A DNA stretch of 37,336 nt, taken from IMG/VR virus record IMGVR_UViG_3300010970_000067, positions 1 through 37,336 of that record; one strand, 5' to 3'. The DNA comes from a virus. Position numbers and translations under genes: made by a program. Under the pieces are notes generated by a model. The model was not told the origin of the DNA, ran no database searches, and worked only from the letters and a program-made list of their open reading frames with translations. Positions 613 through 36,986 of the stretch are shown here, piece by piece. Numbering within the stretch: position 1 is the stretch's first letter; each line of letters begins with the position of its first letter.

Positions 613-1998
613 ATGCCAATCGATTCTTCTATCGCAATGTCGGGTCGCCAGTTTCATATGGCTGACCCTCTCGAGATTCAGAGCAAGGTCGCTACGCTCG
701 GCCAGCTCGCAGGCCAGCAGCAGCTCCAGCAGATGCAAATCCAAGCTGCTCAGCGCACGCAAGACCAGGAGAACACGCTCGCTGATCTGTACAAGGGTAA
801 CGTGAACCCAGACGGCACAGTCAACCGTCAGGGCGTGATGTCTGGTGCTGCTCAGCGTGGCTTGGGTTCCAAGATTCCAGGCATGCAGAAGCAGTTCGCT
901 GACGCTGATAAAGCTACGGCAGACGTCAAGCACGTTGGTGCTCAGACAGGCGAGCTTGAGTGGAAGACTGCCAAGGGCAAGATCGAAGCTTCTGGTGCTG
1001 CACTCAGCTCCCTGCTCGCAAACCCCAACACTACACACGATGAAGTCATCCAGACGATGGTGGGTCTGGTGAACCGAGGGGTCGTGACTCCAGAACAAGG
1101 CCAGCAAGCTATACGTGAGTTGCCCGGTGACCCCGTACGGCTGCGTCAGTACCTCGTGCAGAAAGGCATGGAGGTCATGGAAGCTGGCAAGCGCATGGAG
1201 ATGCTGGCACCGAAGCGACAAGAGGTCAACGACGGCAAGACCACATCTTTCGTGGACGTCAACCCGTACACGAATCCTCAGGGGCCTGCACCTATCAAGA
1301 TGCAGACCACTCCAGGCCAGGACCAGAGCAACGCGACGCAGGTTCGTGGCCAGAACCTTGTCAACGCACGGGCAGTGGATGCAAACGGCATTGCACAATC
1401 AGCAGCGCGCACGCAAGTGGTGGAGGGTCCTGATGGCTTCGTGCTCATCGACAAAGGTACGGGTCTGGCTCGCCCTGCTGCTACGATGAACGGTGCTCAG
1501 GTGCAGGGCAAGAACAACGGGCTGAACGATGTGCAGTCCAAAGCGCTTCTGTTCGGCTCCCGCATGCAAGCGGCTGAGAAGGTGCTGGGTGATATGGCCC
1601 TCCAAGGCACGGTGCGTCCTTCGGTAATGAAGAACGTCGTCGAGCGTATCCCGCTGGTGGGTGGTGCTGCTGGTGCTGCTGCCAACAACCTATCTTCGCC
1701 TCAGCAACAGAAGGTGGAGCAGGCACAACGGGACTTCATCAACGCTGTGTTGCGGCGTGAGTCCGGCGCTGCCATTGCCGAGTCGGAGTTCGAAAACGCT
1801 CGGAAGCAGTACTTCCCAGCCGTGGGTGATTCAGACGCAGTCATAGCGCAGAAGAGTCAGAACCGGCAGCTCGCCACGAAGGGCATCCTGGCTGAAGTGC
1901 CTCCCAAGCAACGTAACTCTCTCGACCCCGGTGCTGCTGACGCCTCTGGCTTACCAGATGACATCGCGGCTATTCTCAAGAAGCATGGAGGTAAGTGA
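613..1998 (+). CDS. DNA ejection/internal virion protein, P22 gp20-like
   Basis: A 461-residue protein (P22 gp20 is about 471). I use ATG 613 because GAAAGGAAA lies just upstream; the open frame extends further left but only over the preceding gene. The N-terminus is Gln-rich (QQQLQQMQIQAAQ) and likely helical, the middle is Ala/Gly-rich, and the C-terminus ends in a short Lys-rich helix. This fits proteins released from the virion to form a DNA conduit across the envelope. It lies between the gp7-like and gp16-like genes and its TGA overlaps the next ATG (TGATG), so the three are translationally coupled. There is no decisive motif; the assignment rests on order, length and composition. Confidence 0.65.
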   Translation: MPIDSSIAMSGRQFHMADPLEIQSKVATLGQLAGQQQLQQMQIQAAQRTQDQENTLADLYKGNVNPDGTVNRQGVMSGAAQRGLGSKIPGMQKQFADADKATADVKHVGAQTGELEWKTAKGKIEASGAALSSLLANPNTTHDEVIQTMVGLVNRGVVTPEQGQQAIRELPGDPVRLRQYLVQKGMEVMEAGKRMEMLAPKRQEVNDGKTTSFVDVNPYTNPQGPAPIKMQTTPGQDQSNATQVRGQNLVNARAVDANGIAQSAARTQVVEGPDGFVLIDKGTGLARPAATMNGAQVQGKNNGLNDVQSKALLFGSRMQAAEKVLGDMALQGTVRPSVMKNVVERIPLVGGAAGAAANNLSSPQQQKVEQAQRDFINAVLRRESGAAIAESEFENARKQYFPAVGDSDAVIAQKSQNRQLATKGILAEVPPKQRNSLDPGAADASGLPDDIAAILKKHGGK

Positions 1999-3836
1999 TG
2001 GCTACCCAAGACGAAATCATCCAGGCTATCCGCGCTGCTGATAAGGCAGGCGACTCGGCTTCTGTGCGCAAGCTCGGGGCCTATCTGAAGACCATGCCTC
2101 GGGCTGCTCCTGCTGAGACCTATGACCCAACGGAAGGCATGAGTACCTCAGACAAGTTCTTCGCAGGTGCTGGCAAGGCGTTCTACGATGTGGGTCGTGG
2201 CGTAGGCCAGCTCGCACGTGGAGTGATGCCTACCCGTGCTGCTGATGCACTCGGCCTGCCCACGCAAGATGATATCGACGAAGCCAAGCGACTGGACGCT
2301 CCGTTGATGCGTACCACTGCTGGCACCGTGGGTAACGTCACGGGCAACGTGGCGACCGCGCTGCCTGCTATGTTCGTACCGGGTGCTCAGGGCCTCGCAG
2401 GTGCCACCATCACTGGTGGCGTCATGGGGCTGACTCAACCAGTGGCCAGCGACGAGTCACGGCTGAAGAACGTGGCTATGGGTGCTGGTGCTGGTGCTGG
2501 TGGCGTGCTGGCAGGTCGGGTGCTGGCTGCTGGTGCCAAGGGTGCCAAGGCGCTGGTGGAGCCCTTTACAGACAAGGGTAGACAGGCCATTGCCGGACGC
2601 ACCTTGGACCGATTTGGTGTTCAAGCGGGTGACCTTGCCAACGTCACAGGCAACAAGACGGTCACGGGTGCTGTGCCCACGATGGCCGAACAGATCGCAC
2701 GTCCTGAGGGGGCTGCTGGTGCTGCCCGGTTGCAGGACTCGGTACGCAGCTTGGACCCAGAGATCGCCAACAAGTTCGTTGCTCGTGAAGTTGAGAACAA
2801 CGCTGCCCGAGTAGGCACCTTGCGCGAACTGTCTGGTGAAGGTGGTGCGCGTGACTTCGCTGCTGCTATGCGTAGCGGTACTGCGAAAGAACAATACGGC
2901 AAGGCATTCGCTACCAAGATGGACATGAGCGCCATGTCAGCGGCTGAGAAGGGTGAGGTCACCAAACTCATGCAGACCCCTGCCATCAAGGACGCCCTGA
3001 AAGAAGCGCAGACCATCGCCAAGAACCAAGGACTGAACCTCAACAAGCCTGATGGCAGCGTAGAAGGCTTGCACCTGATGAAGCTGGCCATGGACGACGC
3101 TATCGAAGCGGCTAGCAAGGGTGGTTCAGCCGTTGCGGTCAACAAGGCCATGTCCATCAAGACGGCACGTGATCGCCTCGTTACCTTCATCGAGCGCATG
3201 GCTCCCGACTACGCTGAAGCGCGTGGTACATACGCTGCAATGAGCAAGCCCCTGAACCAGATGGACGTGGCTGATGCGCTGTTCCGCAAAGGCACCAGCG
3301 CTACGAGTGATCTGGGTGGTACGCCACGCCTGATGCCTGACAAGTTCGTCAACCTGCTGAAGAACGAAGAAGCAACGGTGAAGGGTGCTACAGGGCGTGA
3401 TCTTGGCAAGCTCTCGCAGGTGCTCGACCCTGACCAATACGCTAAGGTGATGGCAGTCGGCCAGGAGCTGGACAAGGGTGCTGCTGTGGCTCGTGCTGCC
3501 AACGGTCCAGGCAGTGCAACGGCACAACGTCTGGCTTCGCAGAACGTGCTGCGTCAAATCCTTGGGCCTACTGGCTTGCCTCAGAGCTGGGCTGAATCTA
3601 CGCTGCTGAATACCGCTATGCGTCCTGTGCAGTTCGCCTACAACGGTGTGGCCGAACCCAAGATTCAGGCGGTGCTGGCTGACTTGCTGCTCGACCCCAC
3701 CAAGGCTCGTGCAGCTCTGCAAGCTGCCCGTACTGCCCCACAGACCTTGCCTCAATCCGTACGTGATGCTATCCCGTATTTGGAGCAGGCTATGAAGACG
3801 TCAATCCCGGCTGCTGCCCTTGCGGGACAACGGTAA
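1998..3836 (+). CDS. Large DNA ejection protein, P22 gp16-like
   Basis: 612 residues, close to P22 gp16 (609). ATG 1998 is preceded by GGAGGTAAG, a strong Shine-Dalgarno; a GTG one codon earlier is less likely. A soluble N-terminal region (about residues 1-100) is followed by a glycine/alanine-rich hydrophobic stretch around 110-170 that could insert in a membrane, then a long helical, charged C-terminal region. P22 gp16 helps deliver DNA through the cytoplasmic membrane, and a similar role is inferred here. It ends the ejection trio. Its last 36 bases overlap a possible antisense small membrane gene. Confidence 0.65.
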   Translation: MATQDEIIQAIRAADKAGDSASVRKLGAYLKTMPRAAPAETYDPTEGMSTSDKFFAGAGKAFYDVGRGVGQLARGVMPTRAADALGLPTQDDIDEAKRLDAPLMRTTAGTVGNVTGNVATALPAMFVPGAQGLAGATITGGVMGLTQPVASDESRLKNVAMGAGAGAGGVLAGRVLAAGAKGAKALVEPFTDKGRQAIAGRTLDRFGVQAGDLANVTGNKTVTGAVPTMAEQIARPEGAAGAARLQDSVRSLDPEIANKFVAREVENNAARVGTLRELSGEGGARDFAAAMRSGTAKEQYGKAFATKMDMSAMSAAEKGEVTKLMQTPAIKDALKEAQTIAKNQGLNLNKPDGSVEGLHLMKLAMDDAIEAASKGGSAVAVNKAMSIKTARDRLVTFIERMAPDYAEARGTYAAMSKPLNQMDVADALFRKGTSATSDLGGTPRLMPDKFVNLLKNEEATVKGATGRDLGKLSQVLDPDQYAKVMAVGQELDKGAAVARAANGPGSATAQRLASQNVLRQILGPTGLPQSWAESTLLNTAMRPVQFAYNGVAEPKIQAVLADLLLDPTKARAALQAARTAPQTLPQSVRDAIPYLEQAMKTSIPAAALAGQR

Positions 3837-3962
3837 GAACAGCAGTCGTTTGAGTTTGCCATCCCTCATCCGACTGCGCAATATCTCGACTGCCACACGT
3901 ATTGGGACGAGAATTGCAACGGCAATAAATGGTTTCAGGAAGATGGCTAGTAATATGCTCAT
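3801..3962 (-). CDS. Putative small membrane protein, antisense in the late operon
   Basis: A 53-residue frame starting MSILLAIFLKPFIAVAIL. It has one N-terminal hydrophobic helix (about residues 3-24) followed by a basic region containing DGKLKRLLFLPL. A single transmembrane segment followed by an (E/D)GxLKRLL-type tail is a layout I recall from short phage hypothetical proteins. It fills the otherwise empty gap between the gp16-like gene and the tailspike, overlaps the 3' end of the former, and runs against the late operon. No good Shine-Dalgarno is seen upstream of the ATG, which is the main weakness. The plus-strand frame over the same bases looks less protein-like. Confidence 0.4.
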   Translation of the reverse strand: MSILLAIFLKPFIAVAILVPIRVAVEILRSRMRDGKLKRLLFLPLSRKGSSRD

Positions 3963-3989
3963 CGGAATATTTTTAACAGGAGGTCGTCA

Positions 3990-5930
3990 ATGGCTACACT
4001 AATGCCCGAGGGCAAGCAGAGTTTCAACAACAGCGCCGGAGTGCCCCTAGTAGGGGGCAAGCTCTACACCTACGACGCTGGCACCAGCACCCCGCGACCG
4101 ACGTACCAGGACGCAGCAGGTACAGTACCTAACACGAACCCCGTGATACTCGATGCTCGCGGTGAGGCTACCGTGTTCTGGAGTGGCGCATACAAGGCTA
4201 TTCTGAAAGACGCGTCTGACGTTACCATCTGGACGGTGGACGGTATATCTGGCGTCAGCGGTACTGATCTGTCAAGTTCTGCAGGCGCTGGCCTGATCGG
4301 GTTCTTGTATGCTACCGTGTATGCTGCTGGCACAATCGGCAAGTGGTTGAAGGATTTAGCCCTAGGCGCTGGGTCGGGATTCATCGGTTTCGTGCAGCTA
4401 GGCCTCGGCGCTATCGTTCGTACTGTTCTAGACAAACTCCGTGAACAAATCACGTTCGAAGACTATGGTGCTGACCCAACGGGTGCAACTGATTCCACTG
4501 CTGCCTTCAACGCAGCAATACTCGCAGCGTATCAACGGGCACAGAACGTACTGTCTCCGAATGGCGAGATATACACTACTACCATCAAGGGCAAAGCAGG
4601 TGCTGATTACAAGCTGCTCGGGAAAGTAGTAATCCCTTCACAGATCATGCTGGACCTGAATGGCTCCCGGTGTATCGGACCTGACGCTGCTGCTGGCAGC
4701 ACTGCGTACAGCGCTATCGGTAGCGTCATGTTCGCTACTGGCTACTACGACGGTGCGGCTATCCAGCCGAACGCGACTGCTGCAACTGAAACGACTTGGC
4801 GTGTAGTAGGCTCGGGTATCAAGAACGTGACGTTCGCTAATTCCAACTGCCCCATGGACTTTACGAACATGCAGGAACAGTCCTTCCTGGATGGGTTGCG
4901 TTGGTCGAACTGTTCTTGCCTCATGCGGTTGAAGAATTCATTCTATCTCCGTGTTGGTACTGGTCTTGCCCGAGGCAGCGCTCTCGCAGCAGGTCAATAC
5001 GCAGTGCTACTCCACGGTGTAGCAGCTCATGACCTACGGTTTGATTTGCGCATCGTAGGCGCGTCAATCGGATATGAGGTCACTGCAACCAACTCGTTCT
5101 CGGTTGAGATTGGTGGTTCGTTGGAAGAAGGGTACGCTACCAACAGCATCGGCATTCGCAACAACGGTGCGTACTGCCAGTCCTGGAGCGTTCACGCATA
5201 CTGCGAGGGCGTCCGCAAGGGTATCACCACGGTGAACAACGGGTTTTTCTTTGCTTGTGACTTCAGCCCTAGCTACTTCTCCAGCACCGAGTATGCAGTG
5301 CAAGCTGGAGTCAGCGGCTTCCGTAACTGCACATTCGACGCACTATCCGCACCGGACGAAGGCGCTGGCATCCGCAACATCATGGACTTCTCAGCGTTCA
5401 ATAACGATGCTTGGGTACGCATGGCCTCCAAGGGTCGAAACAGTTCTCTCGGTCCGCAAGGCTACCCAACGAACGTGCTCATGGGCAGCAACGGGGGTCA
5501 GGTCTTGTCGGTATCTGCGTGGAGTGATACCGTAGACACCAGTCGAAATCTGGCCTTGTGTGATGGTCGTCAAGCCAACAACAGCACCCTCGGTACGTTC
5601 CCATTTGAAGGTCGTCACACCGTAACGGTTATCAACCAAGTGCCGTTCTGGTCACATAGCTCCCCGACTGGTGCGACCATCCAGATGGATAGCCTGCTCA
5701 CCTATGACGAGAGTACGCCCATCATCGGACACATAGTTGTCGCTGACAACAACGGTACGTACACCTTCGACTTCATCATGATGGGCACTACCGTGTATCC
5801 TCTCACCGCGTTCACAGCAGGCAAAACATTGACGGCAGTCAGCAACGCCGGAATATATCGGTTCACCATTGGTGGTCTGACGATTATCGCCGGTGTGTAC
5901 ACCATCAAGGGCTTCGCCCGAATCATGTAA
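3990..5930 (+). CDS. Tailspike with pectate-lyase-like beta-helix
   Basis: 646 residues, similar in length to the P22 tailspike (667). ATG 3990 follows a strong AGGAGG. The N-terminal ~90 residues (FNNSAGVPLVGGKLYTYDAG, later IWTVDGISG) match the head-binding region common in podovirus tailspikes. Around residue 151 the motif FEDYGADPTGATDSTAAFNA marks the start of a pectate-lyase-superfamily parallel beta-helix, and the remainder is Ser/Thr/Asn/Gly-rich as in beta-helices. The protein is expected to form a trimer that binds, and perhaps cleaves or deacetylates, surface polysaccharide. Catalytic residues cannot be assigned by eye. It sits between the ejection genes and the lysis genes. Confidence 0.85.
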   Translation: MATLMPEGKQSFNNSAGVPLVGGKLYTYDAGTSTPRPTYQDAAGTVPNTNPVILDARGEATVFWSGAYKAILKDASDVTIWTVDGISGVSGTDLSSSAGAGLIGFLYATVYAAGTIGKWLKDLALGAGSGFIGFVQLGLGAIVRTVLDKLREQITFEDYGADPTGATDSTAAFNAAILAAYQRAQNVLSPNGEIYTTTIKGKAGADYKLLGKVVIPSQIMLDLNGSRCIGPDAAAGSTAYSAIGSVMFATGYYDGAAIQPNATAATETTWRVVGSGIKNVTFANSNCPMDFTNMQEQSFLDGLRWSNCSCLMRLKNSFYLRVGTGLARGSALAAGQYAVLLHGVAAHDLRFDLRIVGASIGYEVTATNSFSVEIGGSLEEGYATNSIGIRNNGAYCQSWSVHAYCEGVRKGITTVNNGFFFACDFSPSYFSSTEYAVQAGVSGFRNCTFDALSAPDEGAGIRNIMDFSAFNNDAWVRMASKGRNSSLGPQGYPTNVLMGSNGGQVLSVSAWSDTVDTSRNLALCDGRQANNSTLGTFPFEGRHTVTVINQVPFWSHSSPTGATIQMDSLLTYDESTPIIGHIVVADNNGTYTFDFIMMGTTVYPLTAFTAGKTLTAVSNAGIYRFTIGGLTIIAGVYTIKGFARIM

Positions 5931-5947
5931 CTACGAGGGACACGTAC

Positions 5948-6199
5948 ATGGATCAAACAATCGTTAACTGGTTGCTCGCAGGCTTCGGAGGCTTGATCGG
6001 GTTCCTGCTCAATGCGGTGTGGCAAGCGGTGAAGGACTTGCAGAAGGCCGATACTGATCTTACGAAGAAGGTATCCGAGATCGAAGTGTTGGTGGCAGGC
6101 GCATACGTCAAGAAGGACGATATCGACAAGCTCTCCAACGCTATATTCGCCAAGCTAGACAGAATCGAAGATAAGCTCGATGGAAAGGTTGACAAATGA
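5948..6199 (+). CDS. Small lysis-cassette protein: TM helix plus coiled coil
   Basis: 83 residues. Residues 4-27 (TIVNWLLAGFGGLIGFLLNAV) form a hydrophobic helix, followed by a charged heptad-like region (VSEIEVLVAGAYVKKDDIDK, later KLDRIEDKLDGKVDK). This matches the small XhlA-like or holin-accessory proteins found beside phage endolysins. The start at 5948 has GAGGGA upstream. Its 3' end overlaps the endolysin start by four bases (ATGA), so the two are coupled. It may be a holin, an antiholin or a lysis regulator; the sequence alone does not decide. Confidence 0.6.
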   Translation: MDQTIVNWLLAGFGGLIGFLLNAVWQAVKDLQKADTDLTKKVSEIEVLVAGAYVKKDDIDKLSNAIFAKLDRIEDKLDGKVDK

Positions 6200-6741
6200 A
6201 TATCACTGACATGATCACCGCTCTTATCAAGCGGGAAGGGGGTTATTCCAACGACCCCAACGACAAGGGAGGCGAAACCAACTTCGGCATCACCGTAGCG
6301 GTGGCTCGGGCCTTCGGGTACACGGGGCCTATGGATTCCATGACCCAGCAAGTAGCTCGAGACATCTACGCTCAACGCTTCTGGCACCAACCACGGTTCG
6401 ACGACGTCGACATGGTCAGTGCTCTGGTGGCAGAAGAGATGCTGGATACCGGGGTCAACATGGGTACAGCTACGGCAGGCAAGTTCCTCCAACGTGCGCT
6501 GAACGTGCTGAACCAAGGCGACAAGGTGTACCCCAACATCACCGTGGATGGGGCAGTGGGCAACATGACTATCGCAGCGCTCAAGGCGTTCTTGGCAGCA
6601 CGGGGCAAGGCAGGCGAGACGGTGCTGGTGCGCATGCTCAACGCTCAGCAGTCCGTACGGTATATAGAGATAGCCGAAGCCAACGCTAGCCAGGAGTCGT
6701 TCGAGTATGGGTGGCAATTCAACCGAGTAGGGGGTCTGTGA
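6196..6741 (+). CDS. Endolysin, GH108 muramidase with C-terminal peptidoglycan-binding region
   Basis: 181 residues. EGGYSNDPNDKGGETNFGIT at residues 14-33 is the GH108 (DUF847) signature, and Glu14 is the expected catalytic residue for cleaving the glycan strand. The later segment VDGAVGNMTIAALKAF and following residues match the family's C-terminal peptidoglycan-binding region. No signal peptide or SAR helix is visible, so release should depend on a holin. It is embedded between two membrane-protein genes with four-base and one-base overlaps, a typical compact lysis cassette. Confidence 0.92.
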   Translation: MNITDMITALIKREGGYSNDPNDKGGETNFGITVAVARAFGYTGPMDSMTQQVARDIYAQRFWHQPRFDDVDMVSALVAEEMLDTGVNMGTATAGKFLQRALNVLNQGDKVYPNITVDGAVGNMTIAALKAFLAARGKAGETVLVRMLNAQQSVRYIEIAEANASQESFEYGWQFNRVGGL

Positions 6742-8125: not shown

Positions 8126-8178
8126 GAACTCCACCAAGACCTTTCGTTAAAACCCTATCAAGACGTAGGGGTATTCAA
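8126..8178 (-). promoter_or_regulatory. Conserved upstream element, copy 1
   Basis: About 52 bases are nearly identical to 21421-21472, including aagacctttcg and acgtaggggtattcaa, with one indel. Both copies precede, on the minus strand, a gene of the VVC-RTA-KNGW family. Read leftward each begins TTGAATACCCCTACGT, which may act as a -35-type or activator site; I cannot place a convincing -10. The element overlaps the last codons of the DUF3310 gene. A shared transcription or RNA leader signal is inferred. Confidence 0.6.
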
Positions 8179-8663
8179 ATGTCCTTGCCTTGGTCAACGT
8201 AGCCAGCACCCGGTTCACCTGTATCGTACAGGCCCCCGAGCTTGTTCCACACACGGTCTTGGTCGTCAGACACAGGTAACGGGTATGCCTCAGTGATCAG
8301 GCGTTCGATGCGTGCCTGCAACATGGTCAGGTCTTCGACGAACTGCCAGTTACACACAGAGTTGATGCAGGCGTACTCGATAGGCAACAGCTTGTTCGCT
8401 TCAGCGTACTGAGTCATACGGGCGAAGCTGACCATCTTGTGCCGAGGCATGCGTCCGCTGTCACGTGCCAGCTCGATGAGCTTGGTACAGAAGTGCAGCG
8501 CCTTCTCAGCATCCTCCAGACCCTTCTTGAAGCGGTGCCGTGTGATGTACTTGCTGATCTGGCCTTCGAAGTACCCAAGGTCCAGCTCGTGGGCGAGGTC
8601 CCAGTGCTGGAACGGGTTCTTGTAGTGGGTGCCCCCCACTTGAGTTGCGTTTGCGGTGCTCAT
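8175..8663 (-). CDS. DUF3310 protein (T7 gp1.7-like nucleotide kinase family)
   Basis: 162 residues. VGGTHYKNPFQHWDLAHEL at 9-27 followed by LGYFEGQISKYITRHRFKKG and a helix EDAEKAL is the DUF3310 signature, the family that includes T7 gp1.7, a phage nucleotide kinase. The domain occupies about residues 8-70; the rest is helical and unassigned. ATG 8663 has GGAG upstream and overlaps the preceding HD-nucleotidase stop by four bases. Its position beside nucleotide-metabolism genes supports a role in dNMP supply. Activity is inferred from the family only. Confidence 0.8.
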   Translation of the reverse strand: MSTANATQVGGTHYKNPFQHWDLAHELDLGYFEGQISKYITRHRFKKGLEDAEKALHFCTKLIELARDSGRMPRHKMVSFARMTQYAEANKLLPIEYACINSVCNWQFVEDLTMLQARIERLITEAYPLPVSDDQDRVWNKLGGLYDTGEPGAGYVDQGKDI

Positions 8664-9199
8664 GCGTTCATCTCCAGTTCTGCGCCTGTTGCTGGCGCGA
8701 TTCCAAGGGTCCAGGCGTCGGCAACGACTTCGTTGGTCAACTCCTGTGCGTTATCGGGCATCTTTGCCGTGAGTATCCAACCAAGGCCACGCGCTACCGT
8801 AGGTCTGCAGTAGTCGTTCCCAAGTCGAACTTCTTCCAGGCACCAGAGCACCAGCTCCATGCGGTCAGCCCACTTCAGCATGATGGCCTCAGGCACGGTG
8901 ATCAGGAAGTCCTGGAACAACGGGGCAAGGTCTTCCTCGATGCTGTCCATCAGTGGCCCGAGCTCTGGGTGTACCCGCTTGATGGGGGCAGGTATGTCAC
9001 CAGTGAACAGCTCTGGGAGGTCGTGGTGCAGTACCGCGTTCATCAGGTTCTTGGTACACAACGGGTTGATCTGCTTGATGAGCATCAGCATACCGAACGT
9101 GTGTTCCGCGATGGACTGACTACGGTGCGTGCGCTTCACGTGGTAACGCTTCACAGCACCAGCATCACGGTACAGAGTAGCTTCGACGAGGGCCTTCAT
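8660..9199 (-). CDS. HD-domain 5'-deoxynucleotidase (YfbR-like)
   Basis: 179 residues. The HD metal-binding set is visible: His33 in SIAEHTFGM, His59-Asp60 in VLHHDLPELFTGDIPAP, and Asp112 in LKWADRMEL. This pattern matches YfbR-type 5'-deoxynucleotidases, which hydrolyse dNMPs to nucleosides. Such enzymes in phages shape the dNTP pool, for example by removing a canonical dNMP so that a modified one is used. The gene overlaps both neighbours by ATGA and is translated directly after the TS-fold enzyme, which supports a shared pathway. Confidence 0.88.
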   Translation of the reverse strand: MKALVEATLYRDAGAVKRYHVKRTHRSQSIAEHTFGMLMLIKQINPLCTKNLMNAVLHHDLPELFTGDIPAPIKRVHPELGPLMDSIEEDLAPLFQDFLITVPEAIMLKWADRMELVLWCLEEVRLGNDYCRPTVARGLGWILTAKMPDNAQELTNEVVADAWTLGIAPATGAELEMNA

Positions 9200-10245
9200 G
9201 CCAGCACCACTTTCTTGTCAGACGCACGTTGAGCACGACGTTGCACCCACTCGAACATCGCGAGTCGCCAGTCGGAGGCAGGCAGTTCTTGGATGATCGC
9301 CATGGAGCTGGCGTAGAGCTTCGCCTTGTACATATCGTATGCACGCACAACAGGAGCAACCACGTTACGGCCGAACTCGGATACGTACTCAACGTGGGCA
9401 AGGACTTCACCCTGCTCGACCTGCGTAGCCATACGGATACAGTCGTAGTACAGCATGAGTGCGTCTTCCGCGTCAACAGCCAGTGGGTAGGGATGCACAG
9501 AGTCCATGGAATACGGGTTGTGAACGTGGCCATGCTCGTACTCACCCTCACGGAACTTCAGCCAGAACGGGTTGTCCGTGTATACGTGGTAGTTGTTGGA
9601 CTGCTGAACGTAGTAGCCTACCTTCACGCCGACCATGATCGCGATGAATTCCTGCAGGACGCTGAACTGCACTGCGTTGGCTCCGTAGGCACCCCACACG
9701 GCATCGTTGCTACGGTTACACACCGTCATGTTGAGCTGGCCTTCCACGATGTCCAGCATGATCATGTCGTTGCAGGGCATGTCCTTGGTCGACTTGTCCA
9801 GGTCCGTGATTGGGTTCCAGATGCTCATCACGACTTGCCGTGTGTCTGGCTTGCGCTTGAGCATTTCACAGGCACGCTCAATCTGGTCAAACTCGAAGGC
9901 GTTGCGCAGACGATGCCCATACGCACCATGGAACACCACGCCATCATCGCTGAACTGGCTGATGTTGTCGAGGAAGTACTTGGGCAGCTCAACCCGGTTA
10001 CTGCCCGACAGAATCCACAAGGACTCGATCAGGTGGAAGAACGGGTTAGCATCACGGATGGTATCGAACAGCACGCGCTGACGGGGCTGCGAGTACACGG
10101 TGCTGACGGGGCCTGGAACCCGCATGGTATGCAAGCCACGGGACTCAGAGAATACACCACGCTCTTGCAGCAGGATCAAGCCCAGAGGCAGGGCTTCGTT
10201 GACGTTGTTGACGCGCAGGATAGCGCCATAACGGTTGTCGTTCAT
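9196..10245 (-). CDS. Thymidylate synthase-fold enzyme (TS or dUMP hydroxymethylase)
   Basis: 349 residues from ATG 10245, chosen for the upstream CTGAAAGG; the frame opens nine codons earlier. TS-fold landmarks are present: the catalytic Cys158 in MPCNDMIMLDI, the phosphate-binding NRSNDAVWGAYGANAV (Arg178, Ser179, Asp181) and His220-Tyr222 in NNYHVYTDN. Asn190 fits the position that selects uracil rather than cytosine, so dUMP is the likely substrate. The sequence does not look like ordinary ThyA, and the neighbours (P-loop kinase, aGPT-Pplase-like protein, HD nucleotidase) favour 5-hydroxymethyl-dUMP synthesis over plain dTMP synthesis. That distinction is inference. Confidence 0.8.
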   Translation of the reverse strand: MNDNRYGAILRVNNVNEALPLGLILLQERGVFSESRGLHTMRVPGPVSTVYSQPRQRVLFDTIRDANPFFHLIESLWILSGSNRVELPKYFLDNISQFSDDGVVFHGAYGHRLRNAFEFDQIERACEMLKRKPDTRQVVMSIWNPITDLDKSTKDMPCNDMIMLDIVEGQLNMTVCNRSNDAVWGAYGANAVQFSVLQEFIAIMVGVKVGYYVQQSNNYHVYTDNPFWLKFREGEYEHGHVHNPYSMDSVHPYPLAVDAEDALMLYYDCIRMATQVEQGEVLAHVEYVSEFGRNVVAPVVRAYDMYKAKLYASSMAIIQELPASDWRLAMFEWVQRRAQRASDKKVVLA

Positions 10246-10258
10246 GTTGTGTTGCCTT

Positions 10259-10837
10259 TCAGAGAAGATCATCTACGCTGGGTTCGGGGAGACCCAGCAG
10301 CTCCAGCGCCATGTTGTACGCCTGACGGTATTGTACCCGGTGTACTTCAAGACCTGCTCGTTCAAGACGGTCTGCCCAGCTACGTGCAGACGCCAGCTTG
10401 CGGTACAGGTTCTTGGGGTCGTAGGGCTTCGTGGTGCCCTTGGCTGTACGACGCTTCAGCACGTTCTTGATACAGATGGTTTCGGGTGTATCTAGCAGGA
10501 TGAACACGGCACGGTCAAAGTAACTGGCGAAGGTCTGGCAGGTGCCCACGCCTGGAGTGACCAGTCCTTCAGCGAACACGTTGCGCACGAACCCCACGTT
10601 CTCCTTGAGCACGTCGTGCAGGGCTGCATAGGGCTGCATGCCGTCCACGCCTCCACAAGCGGTGCCGTACTTGCCAGCCAGGACCACGCCAGCTCGCCCG
10701 GTGTGCGTCCATGTAGCCTTGGGGGTACTGGCCAGCTTGGACACGCCTTGCGCACCACCAGCAGCAGCCAGCACAGCACGGGCGAGGGTGCTCTTGCCAC
10801 TCCCGTTGGTGCCATGCACGTAGACAAGTGTGGTCAT
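10259..10837 (-). CDS. P-loop deoxynucleotide/5-hmdU DNA kinase-like protein
   Basis: 192 residues. The Walker A is GTNGSGKST at 9-17. The segment GKYGTACGGVDGM at 55-67 and FAEGLVTPG further on resemble the family I associate with phage 5-hydroxymethyluracil DNA kinases. A lid-like Arg/Lys region (LKRRTAKGTTKPYD) follows. In known hypermodification pathways such kinases phosphorylate 5-hmdU in DNA so that the group can be displaced by an amine. The gene ends in VDDLL, a peptide recurring in this early region. It overlaps the preceding tiny ORF by ATGA with AGGAG in front. A free-dNMP kinase is the alternative. Confidence 0.7.
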   Translation of the reverse strand: MTTLVYVHGTNGSGKSTLARAVLAAAGGAQGVSKLASTPKATWTHTGRAGVVLAGKYGTACGGVDGMQPYAALHDVLKENVGFVRNVFAEGLVTPGVGTCQTFASYFDRAVFILLDTPETICIKNVLKRRTAKGTTKPYDPKNLYRKLASARSWADRLERAGLEVHRVQYRQAYNMALELLGLPEPSVDDLL

Positions 10838-10935
10838 CGCTTGCTCCTACAGTTACACGGACGACGCCCTTGTCCGCAGTCACCACCACAACCGCCGACG
10901 AACATCTTGCGTATGAAGTTGAGTATGCGATTCAT
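10834..10935 (-). CDS. Tiny Cys-rich peptide (C-x3-C-QGR-C-x-C type)
   Basis: 33 residues, MNRILNFIRKMFVGG followed by CGGDCGQGRRPCNCRSKR. The four-cysteine pattern with an internal GQGR resembles the CxGxCxQGRxCxC peptides I recall from many phages, always of unknown function; metal binding is plausible. The amphipathic N-terminus may contact a membrane. It has ATGA overlaps on both sides: its start overlaps the 26-residue ORF stop and its stop overlaps the kinase start. Such tight coupling in a chain of four genes argues that it is translated. Confidence 0.65.
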   Translation of the reverse strand: MNRILNFIRKMFVGGCGGDCGQGRRPCNCRSKR

Positions 10936-11012
10936 ACGAACCACCACACGATCAGCGTGATCTTGGCGAGTATGTACACCAGCAGGGATAACCATACCGC
11001 ACGTTTGCTCAT
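10932..11012 (-). CDS. Tiny single-TM peptide
   Basis: 26 residues, MSKRAVWLSLLVYILAKITL then IVWWFV: a basic N-terminus followed by one hydrophobic helix. The start overlaps the aGPT-like gene stop (ATGA) and the stop overlaps the next tiny gene (ATGA). There is no close Shine-Dalgarno, so it would be read by reinitiation. The function is unknown. The perfect overlap chain is the main support for it. Confidence 0.5.
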   Translation of the reverse strand: MSKRAVWLSLLVYILAKITLIVWWFV

Positions 11013-11842
11013 AGGTGACTCGCTACTTCTGCCAGTGTTGGCTCATCCCAGATACCACCAGCGTACAGACCATTCAGCAGGACTTGTGCCGTAGGTGTTT
11101 CAGCGTGCATGCTCATCAGACGCTTGTACGCCTTGGCACTGCGGAAGCCGAACTTGTAATCACCGACTACGTGCTGCTTGAACACACACGCAACGGTCTC
11201 GGACTCCTGTAGCTTGAGCTTCCGTGCGGGGGCAAACGGATGGTCCAGCTTACCGATGTGTTTGGTGATGAGTGCCATCGTTTCTTCGAGCACGAAGGTG
11301 TTCTCCATATCCCCGATCATGTCGGCACCCTGCTTCGGCACTTTCGGCATGTACTTCTCACACCCGGTGAAGTCCACTGGCTTGTGGAACACCGTGTCTT
11401 GGATATCTGCCAGCTTCCAGTAGAAGTAGTCGCCCATCTGCGCCATGTGGGTCATGTTCTTGCGCACGCCCAGATACGACGAAGCGAAGCAGGCTTCCAC
11501 CATAGCTTCAGGCTTGGGGTACAGCGACTGCCACTGAGCCAACGCCTTCAGCCCTGCCTGCCCACGGAAGTGCCGACGCTCTGAAGCACGCTTGGCATGC
11601 GGGTAGACGTAGCGCAGAAACTCGTAGAACTTGGCACCCTGGAAGTCGCTGGCACGCGCTGCCAGACCGGGGTTGTAGAAGGTACACCATGCGAGGATGT
11701 AACGGAGCTTCTTGGCTTCGTCCAGCTCAGCGCGTGCCAGCAGCATGTATCCGGGGTCCGCGTCTTCGAGCTTGAACATCTGCGTAGCGAACTTGCGCCA
11801 GTCACCCGTGTGGTCTGTGGATACCAAAGATTTTACATTCAC
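11009..11842 (-). CDS. aGPT-Pplase / amino acid:DNA transferase-like protein
   Basis: 277 residues from GTG 11842, which has AGGAG six bases upstream; no in-frame ATG is near. The conserved-looking segments are WCTFYNPGLAAR at 52-63 and ASERRHFRGQAGLKAL at 86-101. I recognise these as the style of the alpha-glutamyl/putrescinyl-thymine pyrophosphorylase clade, now called amino acid:DNA transferases. These attach an amino group to phosphorylated 5-hmdU in DNA. Two genes downstream lies a 5-hmdU-kinase-like protein and then a TS-fold enzyme, the expected partners. Family membership is from memory of motifs and needs a profile search. Confidence 0.6.
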   Translation of the reverse strand: MNVKSLVSTDHTGDWRKFATQMFKLEDADPGYMLLARAELDEAKKLRYILAWCTFYNPGLAARASDFQGAKFYEFLRYVYPHAKRASERRHFRGQAGLKALAQWQSLYPKPEAMVEACFASSYLGVRKNMTHMAQMGDYFYWKLADIQDTVFHKPVDFTGCEKYMPKVPKQGADMIGDMENTFVLEETMALITKHIGKLDHPFAPARKLKLQESETVACVFKQHVVGDYKFGFRSAKAYKRLMSMHAETPTAQVLLNGLYAGGIWDEPTLAEVASHL

Positions 11843-16974: not shown

Positions 16975-17376
16975 TCAGGATTCGCTGCTGGCTTTACGGA
17001 TGCTAGGCTTGGTCTCCGTGTAGCCGACAACGGGTTTCAGAGGGTCCGTGAAGTCGTCGCCAGCGCTGCCACGCACCTTCTTGGGCCAGAGCTTCTTGCT
17101 ACGCAACAGCTTCTCGGCTTGGGCAGGGCTTAGGAGCTCCACCGTGTACCGTTCGCGCTTGGCAAGGCCCAGCTCCTCCAGCGTGGTGTTGGCTGCTTCT
17201 TCGTCCTTCCACATGCGTCGTGCTGCTGTGAAGCTGGCCTCGTAGCCGGGGATGACGGTGCCAGCATGCACCAGCTCGATGGCATGGGCACGCACTGCCT
17301 CACCGATCTTGTCCATCATCTCCAGCGTGTCCAGGAGCTGTGCTATCTGCTTGGGGGTCAGGGAACCGGGCTTCAT
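16975..17376 (-). CDS. DUF2800 C-terminal region, separate gene
   Basis: 133 residues. TPKQIAQLLDTLEMMDKIGE, then ELVHAGTVIPGYEA and ARRMWKDEE, match what I know as the C-terminal third of DUF2800 nucleases, which in most phages are one protein of roughly 370-400 residues. Here it begins at its own ATG with a perfect AAGGAGG seven bases upstream, overlapping the stop of the first half by ATGA. The two halves probably assemble after translation. There is no slippery sequence at the junction. The end is Lys/Ser-rich. Confidence 0.7.
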   Translation of the reverse strand: MKPGSLTPKQIAQLLDTLEMMDKIGEAVRAHAIELVHAGTVIPGYEASFTAARRMWKDEEAANTTLEELGLAKRERYTVELLSPAQAEKLLRSKKLWPKKVRGSAGDDFTDPLKPVVGYTETKPSIRKASSES

Positions 17377-18119
17377 GTGAAGTCCTCCTTCGCCTTCTTC
17401 AGCACCAGCTCGTACTGAGCAATGCAGTTACCGTTCGCTGCGCAGTAGTGGCAGTGCGCACCAGCCACACGGGGAGCACCCTTACCCAGCGCCAGAGGCA
17501 CCACCGGACGCACCACCTTGTCTACCCACTGCATCACCTTGACGTCGGTCATGGCAGGGGCTTCCTGTACTGGCTTGCGCTTGGCCAGACGAGGCTGAAC
17601 CACCACCTTGCGATACCGTTGGTATCTACCACGCTGTGAGCGCATACCCACGGCATAGAGCAGGAGCTGGCTGTTGTCCTTGACCGACACACTGATGCCG
17701 ACGCCATGTTTGTAGTCGAGCACCACACACTCAGCCGGGTAGTTGTCCAGGATGATGTCGCTCGTGCCGAAGCCTTGGTCATCAGTGGCTCCGATGGCAG
17801 CACCGAAGGCTACCTCGTGCTCCACCAGCACCTTGGTCTTAGGGTTGTTCGCTACGTATGCCTGCACATAGTCGAGCGCGTAGCCAACACCATCGGTCAT
17901 GCCTTCATCTACAGGCATGTGACCCGGTTCCAGGGTGTCCCCAAAGAACTCTTCTGGTTGTGTGCCCAGACGGAGGCAGACCTCCAGGAGCGCGTGCGCA
18001 CTGGTGCCCTCCAGCGCGTGGATGCTCTGTGTCCAGGGCTTGCCGATGTTGGCTTCCACGCTACCGGGGCACACCAACCAGCGATGAGACGCGCTCGGGC
18101 TGAGTATGGCGTGCTTCAT
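17373..18119 (-). CDS. DUF2800 (RecB/Cas4-like) nuclease, N-terminal part
   Basis: 248 residues. LSPSASHRWLVCPGSVEAN at 6-24, EGTSAHALLEV, FGTSDIILDN and CVVLDYKHGVG give the PD-(D/E)xK nuclease core (Glu and Asp plus Lys of DYKHG), and a terminal Cys cluster, HCHYCAANGNC, with the N-terminal Cys may hold an Fe-S cluster as in Cas4/AddB-type nucleases. Its usual C-terminal part is encoded by the next gene. It probably acts in recombination or DNA processing with the ssDNA-binding protein downstream. Its start lies one base after the Gp49-like gene. Confidence 0.8.
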   Translation of the reverse strand: MKHAILSPSASHRWLVCPGSVEANIGKPWTQSIHALEGTSAHALLEVCLRLGTQPEEFFGDTLEPGHMPVDEGMTDGVGYALDYVQAYVANNPKTKVLVEHEVAFGAAIGATDDQGFGTSDIILDNYPAECVVLDYKHGVGISVSVKDNSQLLLYAVGMRSQRGRYQRYRKVVVQPRLAKRKPVQEAPAMTDVKVMQWVDKVVRPVVPLALGKGAPRVAGAHCHYCAANGNCIAQYELVLKKAKEDFT

Positions 18120-20535: not shown

Positions 20536-20904
20536 CTACCGGGGTATGCGGTCTTGGATGCGTTGCCTGTTGGTTGCAAAGGCTTCTTCAGTGGGGTGCC
20601 AGCACTGCCACCAGCTAGCAGGCATGCGGGGCAACGTGGGTACAGTGCTGTACTTAGGATTCCAGCCCCTGCTTCGCATTTCCAGGTAGATAGCGTCGAA
20701 CCGTTGTGTCAGCCACTCCAGCCGGGTGTAGAAGAACTTCACATGACCCTTGCCCAGCAAGTACTCCTGAGGATACTTACCGGGGTCTTCGCCCCGTTGG
20801 TAAGCAGCGTAGGCCAGCTTGAAGACACGGGGGAGCTCACGGTATTCGGCCCCCAGATGCTTGTCGTGCAGTTCTTGCACGGGTACACAGTTGATGCGAG
20901 TCAT
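20536..20904 (-). CDS. denV: Pyrimidine-dimer DNA glycosylase (endonuclease V, T4 DenV-like)
   Basis: 122 residues. MTRINCVPVQELHDKHLGAE then YRELPRVF is very close to the start of T4 endonuclease V. Thr2 (the nucleophile after Met removal) and Glu23 (catalytic) are both present. LGKGHVKFFYTRLEWLTQR and further segments also align with T4 DenV. The enzyme cuts the glycosyl bond of UV-induced pyrimidine dimers and nicks the strand. It is slightly shorter than T4's 138 residues at the C-terminus, lacking the WYKYYGKA end. TGA of the preceding gene touches its ATG. Confidence 0.95.
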   Translation of the reverse strand: MTRINCVPVQELHDKHLGAEYRELPRVFKLAYAAYQRGEDPGKYPQEYLLGKGHVKFFYTRLEWLTQRFDAIYLEMRSRGWNPKYSTVPTLPRMPASWWQCWHPTEEAFATNRQRIQDRIPR

Positions 20905-26366: not shown

Positions 26367-26759
26367 ATGAAGACCGGACCCCGTTCCGTTGGTGCTGCCA
26401 CACTGCGTATCCGCCAGTGCCCAGCGCTGCCCCTTGCACTGCAGAAGACCACACGGGAAATCGTGAACGTCGAGACCACCTTCGCCGAACAGGGCAAGGG
26501 CTACGCTACCACACTGATGCACAAGGTCTGCCGCGAGGCAGACGCTGCTGGTCTCGTGCTGGTGTTGAGCCCTCAGCCTTGGGGCGACAACATCAACCTG
26601 AGCAAGCAACAGCTTGAAGACTGGTACGCACGTAGCTTCGGCTTCTGCGTTATCCAGACGGAGCCCATGACCCTCATGGCACGCATGGTCAACGGCACAC
26701 CCAAGCTCATGGAGCTTACTCCTATCACCGAAGCCCTCTACAAGGAACGAACCAAATGA
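26367..26759 (+). CDS. GNAT-family N-acetyltransferase
   Basis: 130 residues. EQGKGYATTLMHKVCREAD at about 41-59 is the acetyl-CoA pyrophosphate-binding loop (Q-x-G-x-G/A type), followed by the strand LVLVLSPQP and a terminal WYARSFGFCVIQ, so the GNAT core is complete but small. It sits between TerL and portal with GAAAGG upstream, and its stop overlaps the portal start (ATGA). The substrate is unknown: a virion protein, a host protein or modified DNA are possible. Confidence 0.85.
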   Translation: MKTGPRSVGAATLRIRQCPALPLALQKTTREIVNVETTFAEQGKGYATTLMHKVCREADAAGLVLVLSPQPWGDNINLSKQQLEDWYARSFGFCVIQTEPMTLMARMVNGTPKLMELTPITEALYKERTK

Positions 26760-35440: not shown

Positions 35441-36111
35441 TGCCTCATTACGATGAAGCTCGGGGGTTGTTGAACAACACCATTGCGCAAGATGCGACCT
35501 TGGTCGCTACTGCTACGCATGCGGCTGCATCCAAAGCGACCCCCGTTGACACTGACGAACTACCCCTCGTAGATAGCGCTTCTTCGTTTAGCTTGAAGAA
35601 GCTGACGTGGGCTAACCTGAAAGCCACGCTCGCCGCTTGGCTGAATAGCGCACTGATCCCAATCAGCGTCACAGTCGCTAAATCTGCGAATGGTATCACG
35701 GTATCCCTAACGGTAGCTTCTGCAGCCAAGATGCACCTAGGTAGCGGGACAGACAACAGCCCCGCGATCAAGACTACGGAACTTCTGTTCTCCGCCGATG
35801 ACGCTGCCTGGACAGGTTCGGGGGCTTCTATAGGTGAAGAGAGAACGTGGCTCAGCGTCTCTGACCTAGTTGTACGCACGTCCAATGGTGGTGCTAGAGC
35901 TGAACGTGCAAGGTTCACTGGTGGGGGTATGACCGTACAGGGTCAAGTAACCAGCTCCGGCGGTGCCACGCTGCAAGCAACATCTGCAGCGCTTACTAAT
36001 GGAGCTGGTGCCTCTGTTGGCACCTTGGCAAACGCACCAGCAGCAGGCAATCCGACCAAGTGGGTCGGCATCAACGACAACGGCACAATCAGGTATATCC
36101 CAACATGGTAA
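35440..36111 (+). CDS. Tail fibre/needle-like protein
   Basis: 223 residues. KATPVDTDELPLVDSASSFS then LKKLTWANLKATLAAWL at about 32-68 is a segment I know from phage tail-fibre and receptor proteins, followed by a beta-rich Ser/Thr/Gly region and an end, WVGINDNGTIRYIPTW, also common in fibre proteins. It is likely a minor fibre or needle knob. ATG 35440 overlaps the preceding stop. Confidence 0.65.
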   Translation: MPHYDEARGLLNNTIAQDATLVATATHAAASKATPVDTDELPLVDSASSFSLKKLTWANLKATLAAWLNSALIPISVTVAKSANGITVSLTVASAAKMHLGSGTDNSPAIKTTELLFSADDAAWTGSGASIGEERTWLSVSDLVVRTSNGGARAERARFTGGGMTVQGQVTSSGGATLQATSAALTNGAGASVGTLANAPAAGNPTKWVGINDNGTIRYIPTW

Positions 36112-36986
36112 ACGAACTTACGCTGAACCCAGCAGAGGTCATGCACAACTTGACGGTCAACGGAGTAGGTGCTGCTGAAACAACCATGCTGTCACATGAG
36201 CAGGCGTATTGCCCTGTGAACCACTACTTCGGTCCCGGCATTTATATCCGTGAGGTATCCATGGCTGCTGGCATATTCGCCATCGGGCACAGACAAACCC
36301 AGGAGCACGTGAACATACTGCTCAAAGGCAGTGTGCTCATGATGAACGAAGACGGCACTACACAACGGATGGAAGCCCCACTGATGTTCACAGGTAAACC
36401 CGGTCGCAAGATGGGGTACATCTTGGAAGACGTGGTGTGGCAGAATATCTACGCGACAACTGAACGTGACGTGCAGGTGCTCGAAAGTATGTTCCTGGAC
36501 AAATCCCCAGCATGGGTTGATGCGAACGAACTACGCATGAAGTCGGAACACATACTGCGTGAGGCAGATCGTGTGGACTTCGCAGAGGTACTGTTCCGGT
36601 CAGGGTTCTCTGCAGAAACAGTCCAGCGTCAGTCTGAGAATACCAGCGACCAGCGTCCTATGCCTGCTGGTGCCCAGAAGTTCAAACTAGGCCAGTCCCC
36701 AATACACGGTACAGGGGTGTTCGCTACTGCCAACGTAACTGCCCACGAGGTTATCGGGCCAGCGCGACTCGAAGGGTTGCGCACCCCATTGGGTCGGTAC
36801 ACCAATCACTCAAAAACCCCGAACGCGTACATGCGTCTCCATGGTAGCGGTGACATCAGCCTAGTAGCTCTCCGTGATATATCGGGCTGCAACGGTGGCC
36901 GAGACGGAGATGAGGTGACAATAGACTACAGGCAGGCTCTGCGACTATCCGGAATAACCTGCTCAACTACAGGAGAACTAACATGA
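36105..36986 (+). CDS. Cupin-like plus SET-domain fusion protein
   Basis: 293 residues from ATG 36105, which overlaps the preceding stop by seven bases. Residues 31-140 look like a cupin-type beta barrel (GPGIYIREVSMAAG, QEHVNILLKGSVLMMNEDG, VVWQNIYATT). From about 186 a SET domain is recognisable: SPIHGTGVFATANVTAHEV with Gly202 and Gly204, YTNHSKTPNAYM with Asn234-His235-Ser236, and GDEVTIDY (268-275). These are the cofactor and substrate motifs of lysine methyltransferases. The protein is encoded among virion genes, just before the gp7-like gene (ATGA overlap). Its methylation target, if any, is unknown. Confidence 0.8.
   Translation: MVNELTLNPAEVMHNLTVNGVGAAETTMLSHEQAYCPVNHYFGPGIYIREVSMAAGIFAIGHRQTQEHVNILLKGSVLMMNEDGTTQRMEAPLMFTGKPGRKMGYILEDVVWQNIYATTERDVQVLESMFLDKSPAWVDANELRMKSEHILREADRVDFAEVLFRSGFSAETVQRQSENTSDQRPMPAGAQKFKLGQSPIHGTGVFATANVTAHEVIGPARLEGLRTPLGRYTNHSKTPNAYMRLHGSGDISLVALRDISGCNGGRDGDEVTIDYRQALRLSGITCSTTGELT

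Follow-up and report, generated by a model that had tools for sequence, protein, structure and literature searches.

The window analysed here, a stretch of 37,336 bases that constitutes the whole of IMG/VR virus record IMGVR_UViG_3300010970_000067, very likely encodes a thymidine hypermodification cassette. On the minus strand, genes for a family A DNA polymerase, a VRR nuclease and an SNF2-type helicase are followed by those for an amino acid/amine:DNA transferase (ADDT), a P-loop kinase, a thymidylate synthase (TS) homologue, an HD-domain phosphohydrolase and a DUF3310-like protein; the cassette genes all lie at the coordinates assigned to them in an earlier reading of this DNA (the original prediction). 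We put a probability of roughly 0.7 on a route in which 5-hydroxymethyl-2'-deoxyuridine (5-hmdU) would be synthesised and, once in DNA, phosphorylated and then subjected to a single displacement by an amine, with no further tailoring. A minimal, untailored pathway that does without HMUDK_hel is likely. The first 20 kb of the window align with Rhodoferax phage P26218 (86% aligned, 88% identity), which is a lytic Soyang Lake podophage whose genome measures 36,315 bp (PMC4657236). The source of the window is a small freshwater phage, and its unusually short gene set very probably exchanges part of the thymine in its DNA for an amine-bearing form.

The ADDT (277 amino acids; 11009-11842, minus strand) had been likened to its clade in the original prediction, which named the lack of a profile match as a refuting result. 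The match was found: the open reading frame (ORF) scores 147.1 bits (E = 8.8e-43) against the Pfam ADDT profile PF18724, which has a curated cut-off of 26.2. A sequence search of solved chains returned two matches, the PaMx11 glycinyltransferase 8z2m (E = 3.8e-20) and 25qc, an ADDT-domain protein. An AlphaFold2 model built on 40 relatives (pLDDT 96.4) resembles 8z2n (PaMx11 gp46) with TM scores of 0.82/0.79 (E = 3e-13), and the only PDB matches to the model at E <0.001 are the three structures of PaMx11 gp46, named 5-phosphomethyl-2'-deoxyuridine (5-PmdU) glycinyltransferase. Sequence identity between the two enzymes is about 27%. Among the 40 relatives 21 columns are invariant, including E88, R89, R90, H91 and R93 of the motif ERRHFRG (residues 88-94; 11561-11581, minus strand). 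The window ADDT also retains the residues that are invariant over glycine-type, phiW-14 and window enzymes, among them ERR, K143, D146, E213, E215 and C219. Sequence and model together predict an enzyme that swaps the phosphate of 5-PmdU in DNA for an amine.

The TS homologue (9196-10272, minus strand; PF00303, 72 bits) has the motifs of a deoxyuridylate hydroxymethyltransferase. Its catalytic Cys167 (codon at 9772-9774, minus strand) is followed by Asn168 instead of the His of a true TS; Asn is also found at this position in SPO1 gp29, ViI, phiW-14 and M6, and His in T4 td. The uracil-selecting residue is Asn199 (codon at 9676-9678, minus strand), in a region where T4 dCMP hydroxymethylase has Asp. 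The original prediction numbered these residues Cys158 and Asn190, which is correct when counting from Met10, an alternative start at 10245 that is the start annotated in P26218. The motifs PCN and NRSND...GAN match SPO1 gp29, the producer of 5-hmdUMP in that phage. Among solved structures the top match is the hydroxymethylase MilA, which ranks above every true TS, and the nearest relatives beyond the window's own phage type are M6/YuA-type enzymes and their kin (38-42% identity). A search for a flavin-dependent TS found none. By its sequence, the homologue is of the hydroxymethylase type and is predicted to make 5-hmdUMP.

The P-loop kinase (192 amino acids; 10259-10837, minus strand) contains the Walker A motif GTNGSGKS (residues 9-16; 10790-10813, minus strand), which, like GGxD, E90 and R129, is invariant among 34 relatives. 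Its resemblance to 5-hmdU DNA kinases, already pointed out in the original prediction, is borne out by phmmer, which finds PaMx11 gp49 (2e-15), M6 gp54 (6e-7) and phiW-14 gp37 (5e-7) as homologues. Against HMUDK_HMUD1 (PF18748; cut-off 27) the kinase scores 23.7 bits as an ORF and 27.7 bits in a six-frame scan reading upstream of the start; PaMx11 gp49 scores just 17.0 bits, below the window kinase. The predicted structure has a P-loop kinase fold and lies equally near adenylate and polynucleotide kinases. The homologies suggest that this protein phosphorylates 5-hmdU in DNA. The kinases of the window, P26218 (gp15), PaMx11, M6 and phiW-14 are tagged as terminase small subunit in RefSeq and PHROGs (phrog_800), apparently a propagated mislabel, and our finding corrects this widespread annotation. 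As a separate observation, most cassettes at loci L055-L068 have two tandem kinase genes between the ADDT and HMUDK_hel genes, and no tailoring enzyme.

The HD-domain 5'-nucleotidase/dNTPase (8660-9199, minus strand; PF12917, 2.2e-14; related to YfbR 2paq and DatZ 6zpa) has the motifs AEHTFG, HHDLPE and WADRME, with the HD metal motif present. Its gene is coupled to the TS gene, as originally noted, by a 4-base overlap. The HD gene directly follows the TS gene in M6 (gp59) and PaMx11 (gp52) too, and the DUF3310-like gene (8175-8663, minus strand), which matches M6 gp61 and PaMx11 gp53, travels with the module, lying just downstream of the HD gene in those phages as well. Given that dTTPase activity leaves phiW-14-infected cells without dTTP (PMC5977210), the natural inference is that the HD enzyme removes dTMP or dTTP, and we predict such a role by analogy.

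The order ADDT-kinase-TS-HD-DUF3310 is kept in P26218, in a Manatee Spring phage and at some 20 IMG/VR loci. The P26218 cassette proteins, with gp14 as the ADDT, are 85-94% identical to those of the window. In the window, the ADDT and kinase genes are separated by a single ORF of 53 amino acids with no family match, and in P26218 they adjoin directly. All four cassette genes are under purifying selection, with ratios of nonsynonymous to synonymous substitution (dN/dS) of 0.10-0.32. The shared gene order and content, together with these ratios, exclude a chance origin of the cassette. A search for host carriage found no close relative in bacterial genome contigs. The original prediction regarded the system as a novelty among P22-like phages of such a size, which was an overstatement: the P26218 genes have been in GenBank since 2015 as hypothetical, terminase small subunit and thymidylate synthase, and podoviral pelagiphages have been suggested to carry hypermodification genes (PMC9599517). 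A cultured phage therefore has the cassette without its having been recognised, and the P26218 genome paper makes no mention of base modification (PMC4657236).

We surveyed the best 80 of 246 relatives of the window ADDT, a sample weighted toward its kin. A tree computed without the ViI ADDT shows three groups: group I (34 rows), the glycine clade containing PaMx11 and M6; group II (28 rows), containing the window; and group III, with phiW-14 placed weakly beside it. The window enzyme lies outside the glycine clade, the two forming separate clades with 100/99 support each. M6 and PaMx11 carry flavin adenine dinucleotide (FAD), pyridoxal phosphate (PLP), radical S-adenosylmethionine (radical-SAM) and GNAT enzymes within the corresponding block, and tailoring enzymes occur at 27 of 34 group I loci, but at none of the 28 in group II or the 23 in group III (p = 5e-16 in Fisher's test, which, like all our tests on survey loci, treats related loci as independent). 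Wide profiles run with filters off gave no match below E = 1 to a PLP, radical-SAM or FAD tailoring enzyme anywhere in the window, in agreement with the original prediction, and wide profiles that detect such enzymes elsewhere found no such partner in P26218 or the Manatee Spring phage. Residues 139-143 read YFxWK (Y139, F140, W142) in groups II and III and in phiW-14, versus WIxFK in group I. Given its clade, the lack of tailoring partners and the YFxWK motif, the window enzyme probably does not belong to a tailored-glycine system.

A further absence, overlooked by the original prediction, is that of HMUDK_hel (PF18723; aGPT-Pplase1 in Pam3), which we found in M6 (gp55), PaMx11, phiW-14, ViI, Rhizobium TM26 and Pam3. 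It usually accompanies the kinase in known hypermodifying phages, although it does not strictly define that family. Searched over their full length, the records of the window, G001, G002, P26218, the Manatee Spring phage and a 46.7-kb contig yielded no HMUDK_hel. Among loci showing both ADDT and TS, HMUDK_hel is present in 22/22 of the glycine clade, 21/21 of group III and 5/5 of the other group II phages, that is, in all 48 other cassettes seen whole, versus 1/22 in the core clade of the window, a count that includes near-duplicates. The sole exception, L015, belongs to another phage type, in which the genes are arranged differently. A hidden or diverged HMUDK_hel in the window was sought with a 51-sequence profile, filters off, and nothing appeared below E = 0.9; nor did one turn up elsewhere in further core-clade records searched whole (7-47 kb), L015 excepted. 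L015 itself (1209-6603) is a mosaic in which a window-type ADDT is combined with an HMUDK_hel nearest to those of group I, in the order kinase-TS-HD-DUF3310-HMUDK_hel-ADDT. The window cassette contradicts the statement that the TS of M6-like systems always co-occurs with aG/PT-PPlase1 (PMC9599517).

Our data show gene content, homology, conserved residues, the transferase fold, absences and selection; all of the chemical steps, and what the amine is, are inferred. The TS homologue would convert dUMP to 5-hmdUMP, the HD enzyme would deplete competing thymidine nucleotides, and 5-hmdU would be built into the phage DNA. The kinase would then phosphorylate the hydroxymethyl group of some of the 5-hmdU in DNA, and the ADDT would put a small molecule, joined through its amino group, in place of this phosphate, so that the methyl carbon of the thymidine would bear an amine or amino acid. 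The adduct would not be tailored later, HMUDK_hel would not be used, and part of the thymine in the phage DNA would end up replaced by amine-bearing thymine. A plain amine adduct as the final base has a precedent in the putrescinylthymine of phiW-14 (PMC5977210). Restriction resistance has been measured for M6, ViI and phiW-14 DNA (PMC6449724) and is, by analogy, the likely benefit. The shorter pathway of the original prediction is thus supported by the ADDT and the hydroxymethylase-type TS; its suggestion of an unmodified amino-acid adduct is not established, given an ADDT outside the glycine clade with a motif common to phiW-14.

Several points weigh against the proposed route. The window phage and P26218 are known from their genes and not from base chemistry, the kinase assignment sits near the Pfam cut-off with a predicted fold equally near nucleotide kinases, and HMUDK_hel is present in all four tested hypermodifying phages of known base (M6, PaMx11, phiW-14 and ViI). 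If HMUDK_hel is essential, the window route must differ or fail. Purified 5-HMUDK, however, needs only ATP and no second phage protein to phosphorylate hmU-DNA in vitro (PMC6457204). The kinase step may therefore be independent of HMUDK_hel, and a pathway without it is feasible.

Within this route, the amine may be glycine, giving N-alpha-glycinylthymidine, the product of the PaMx11 glycinyltransferase. That enzyme is the nearest solved relative, and the window ADDT retains all of the family-wide invariant residues; its fully supported position outside the glycine clade, and the many group-conserved positions at which it differs, leave glycine a possible but doubtful choice. Putrescine or a related polyamine, yielding alpha-putrescinylthymidine, also seems unlikely as the amine, although phiW-14 makes putrescinylthymine (PMC5977210) and its gp109 is homologous to the window ADDT. 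The YFxWK residues are common to the window, group III and phiW-14, and the hosts of phiW-14 (Delftia) and P26218 (Rhodoferax) are both Comamonadaceae, but phiW-14 sits on a long, weakly supported branch (77/92) outside the window clade and possesses HMUDK_hel, and position 234 is Arg in the window clade versus Asp in both the glycine clade and group III.

A different reading is that the kinase acts on free nucleotides (5-hmdUMP), that the DNA contains mainly plain 5-hmdU and that the ADDT acts little or on another substrate. The missing HMUDK_hel, by its Pfam name part of the 5-hmdU DNA kinase, and the model's equal nearness to adenylate and polynucleotide kinases would fit this. We consider it improbable in view of the kinase homologues in M6, PaMx11 and phiW-14, and of an ADDT that is conserved and under selection and has a solved relative working on phosphorylated 5-hmdU. 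Least probable is acetylation or other alteration of the adduct by a GNAT protein (26367-26759, plus strand), which has conserved counterparts in P26218 and the Manatee Spring phage and recalls the GNAT of the PaMx11 cassette, but has no detectable similarity to the latter and lies between the terminase and portal genes, where a homologue is also present in EBPR podovirus 1, a phage that yielded no ADDT; we assigned it to the terminase-portal block and rejected it as a tailoring enzyme.

If the proposed route is correct, the window carries the smallest thymidine hypermodification gene set among the cassettes compared, useful for finding which proteins are needed and for making amine-bearing DNA. 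The cassette parts the transferase step from tailoring and singles out a separate ADDT clade. Only tentatively do we suggest that one kinase and one transferase, without HMUDK_hel or tailoring, install an amine new to phage DNA, so that a podophage of 36 kb would contain a previously undescribed DNA base. Since cultured P26218 carries the same cassette, the prediction is testable and the base directly measurable.

Other features were noted along the way. At locus L027 (7189-9487; MW202897, Manatee Spring), a TET-associated glycosyltransferase (TAGT, 63.7 bits) takes the usual ADDT place beside a hydroxymethylase-type TS and an HD gene. This gene arrangement suggests glycosylated 5-hmdU, which is not reported in phage genomes according to PMC6449724. 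A pyrimidine dimer DNA glycosylase (20536-20904, minus strand; PF03013), also present in the Manatee Spring phage and L015, may have a bearing on a genome whose thymine is modified. The ORF at 36060-36986 (plus strand) has a SET domain match at its C-terminal end (PF00856, 27.4 bits), unusual for a phage. A DUF2800/PD-(D/E)XK nuclease is encoded as two overlapping ORFs (16975-17376 and 17373-18119, minus strand); the same split occurs in P26218, which rules out a sequencing error.

Compared with known systems, the window cassette is the M6/PaMx11 module stripped down. The PaMx11 module comprises the glycinyltransferase gp46, FAD enzyme gp47, GNAT gp48, kinase gp49, HMUDK_hel gp50, TS gp51 and HD gp52; its ADDT, kinase, TS and HD are homologous one by one to those of the window and in the same order, but the window lacks the FAD enzyme, cassette GNAT and HMUDK_hel, and its ADDT belongs to another clade. 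The M6/YuA module (5-NedU) likewise shares the ADDT (gp51), kinase (gp54), TS (gp58, 39% identical), HD (gp59) and DUF3310-like protein (gp61), and differs in having PLP and radical-SAM enzymes, HMUDK_hel and Nmad5, none of which was found in the window. phiW-14 (alpha-putrescinylthymine) shares the ADDT (gp109) and kinase (gp37) homologues, a hydroxymethylase-type TS and an ADDT outside the tailored glycine clade; its genes, however, are scattered across 157 kb, HMUDK_hel is present and its base has been established by chemistry. P26218 has the same cassette in the same order, with no essential difference from the window.

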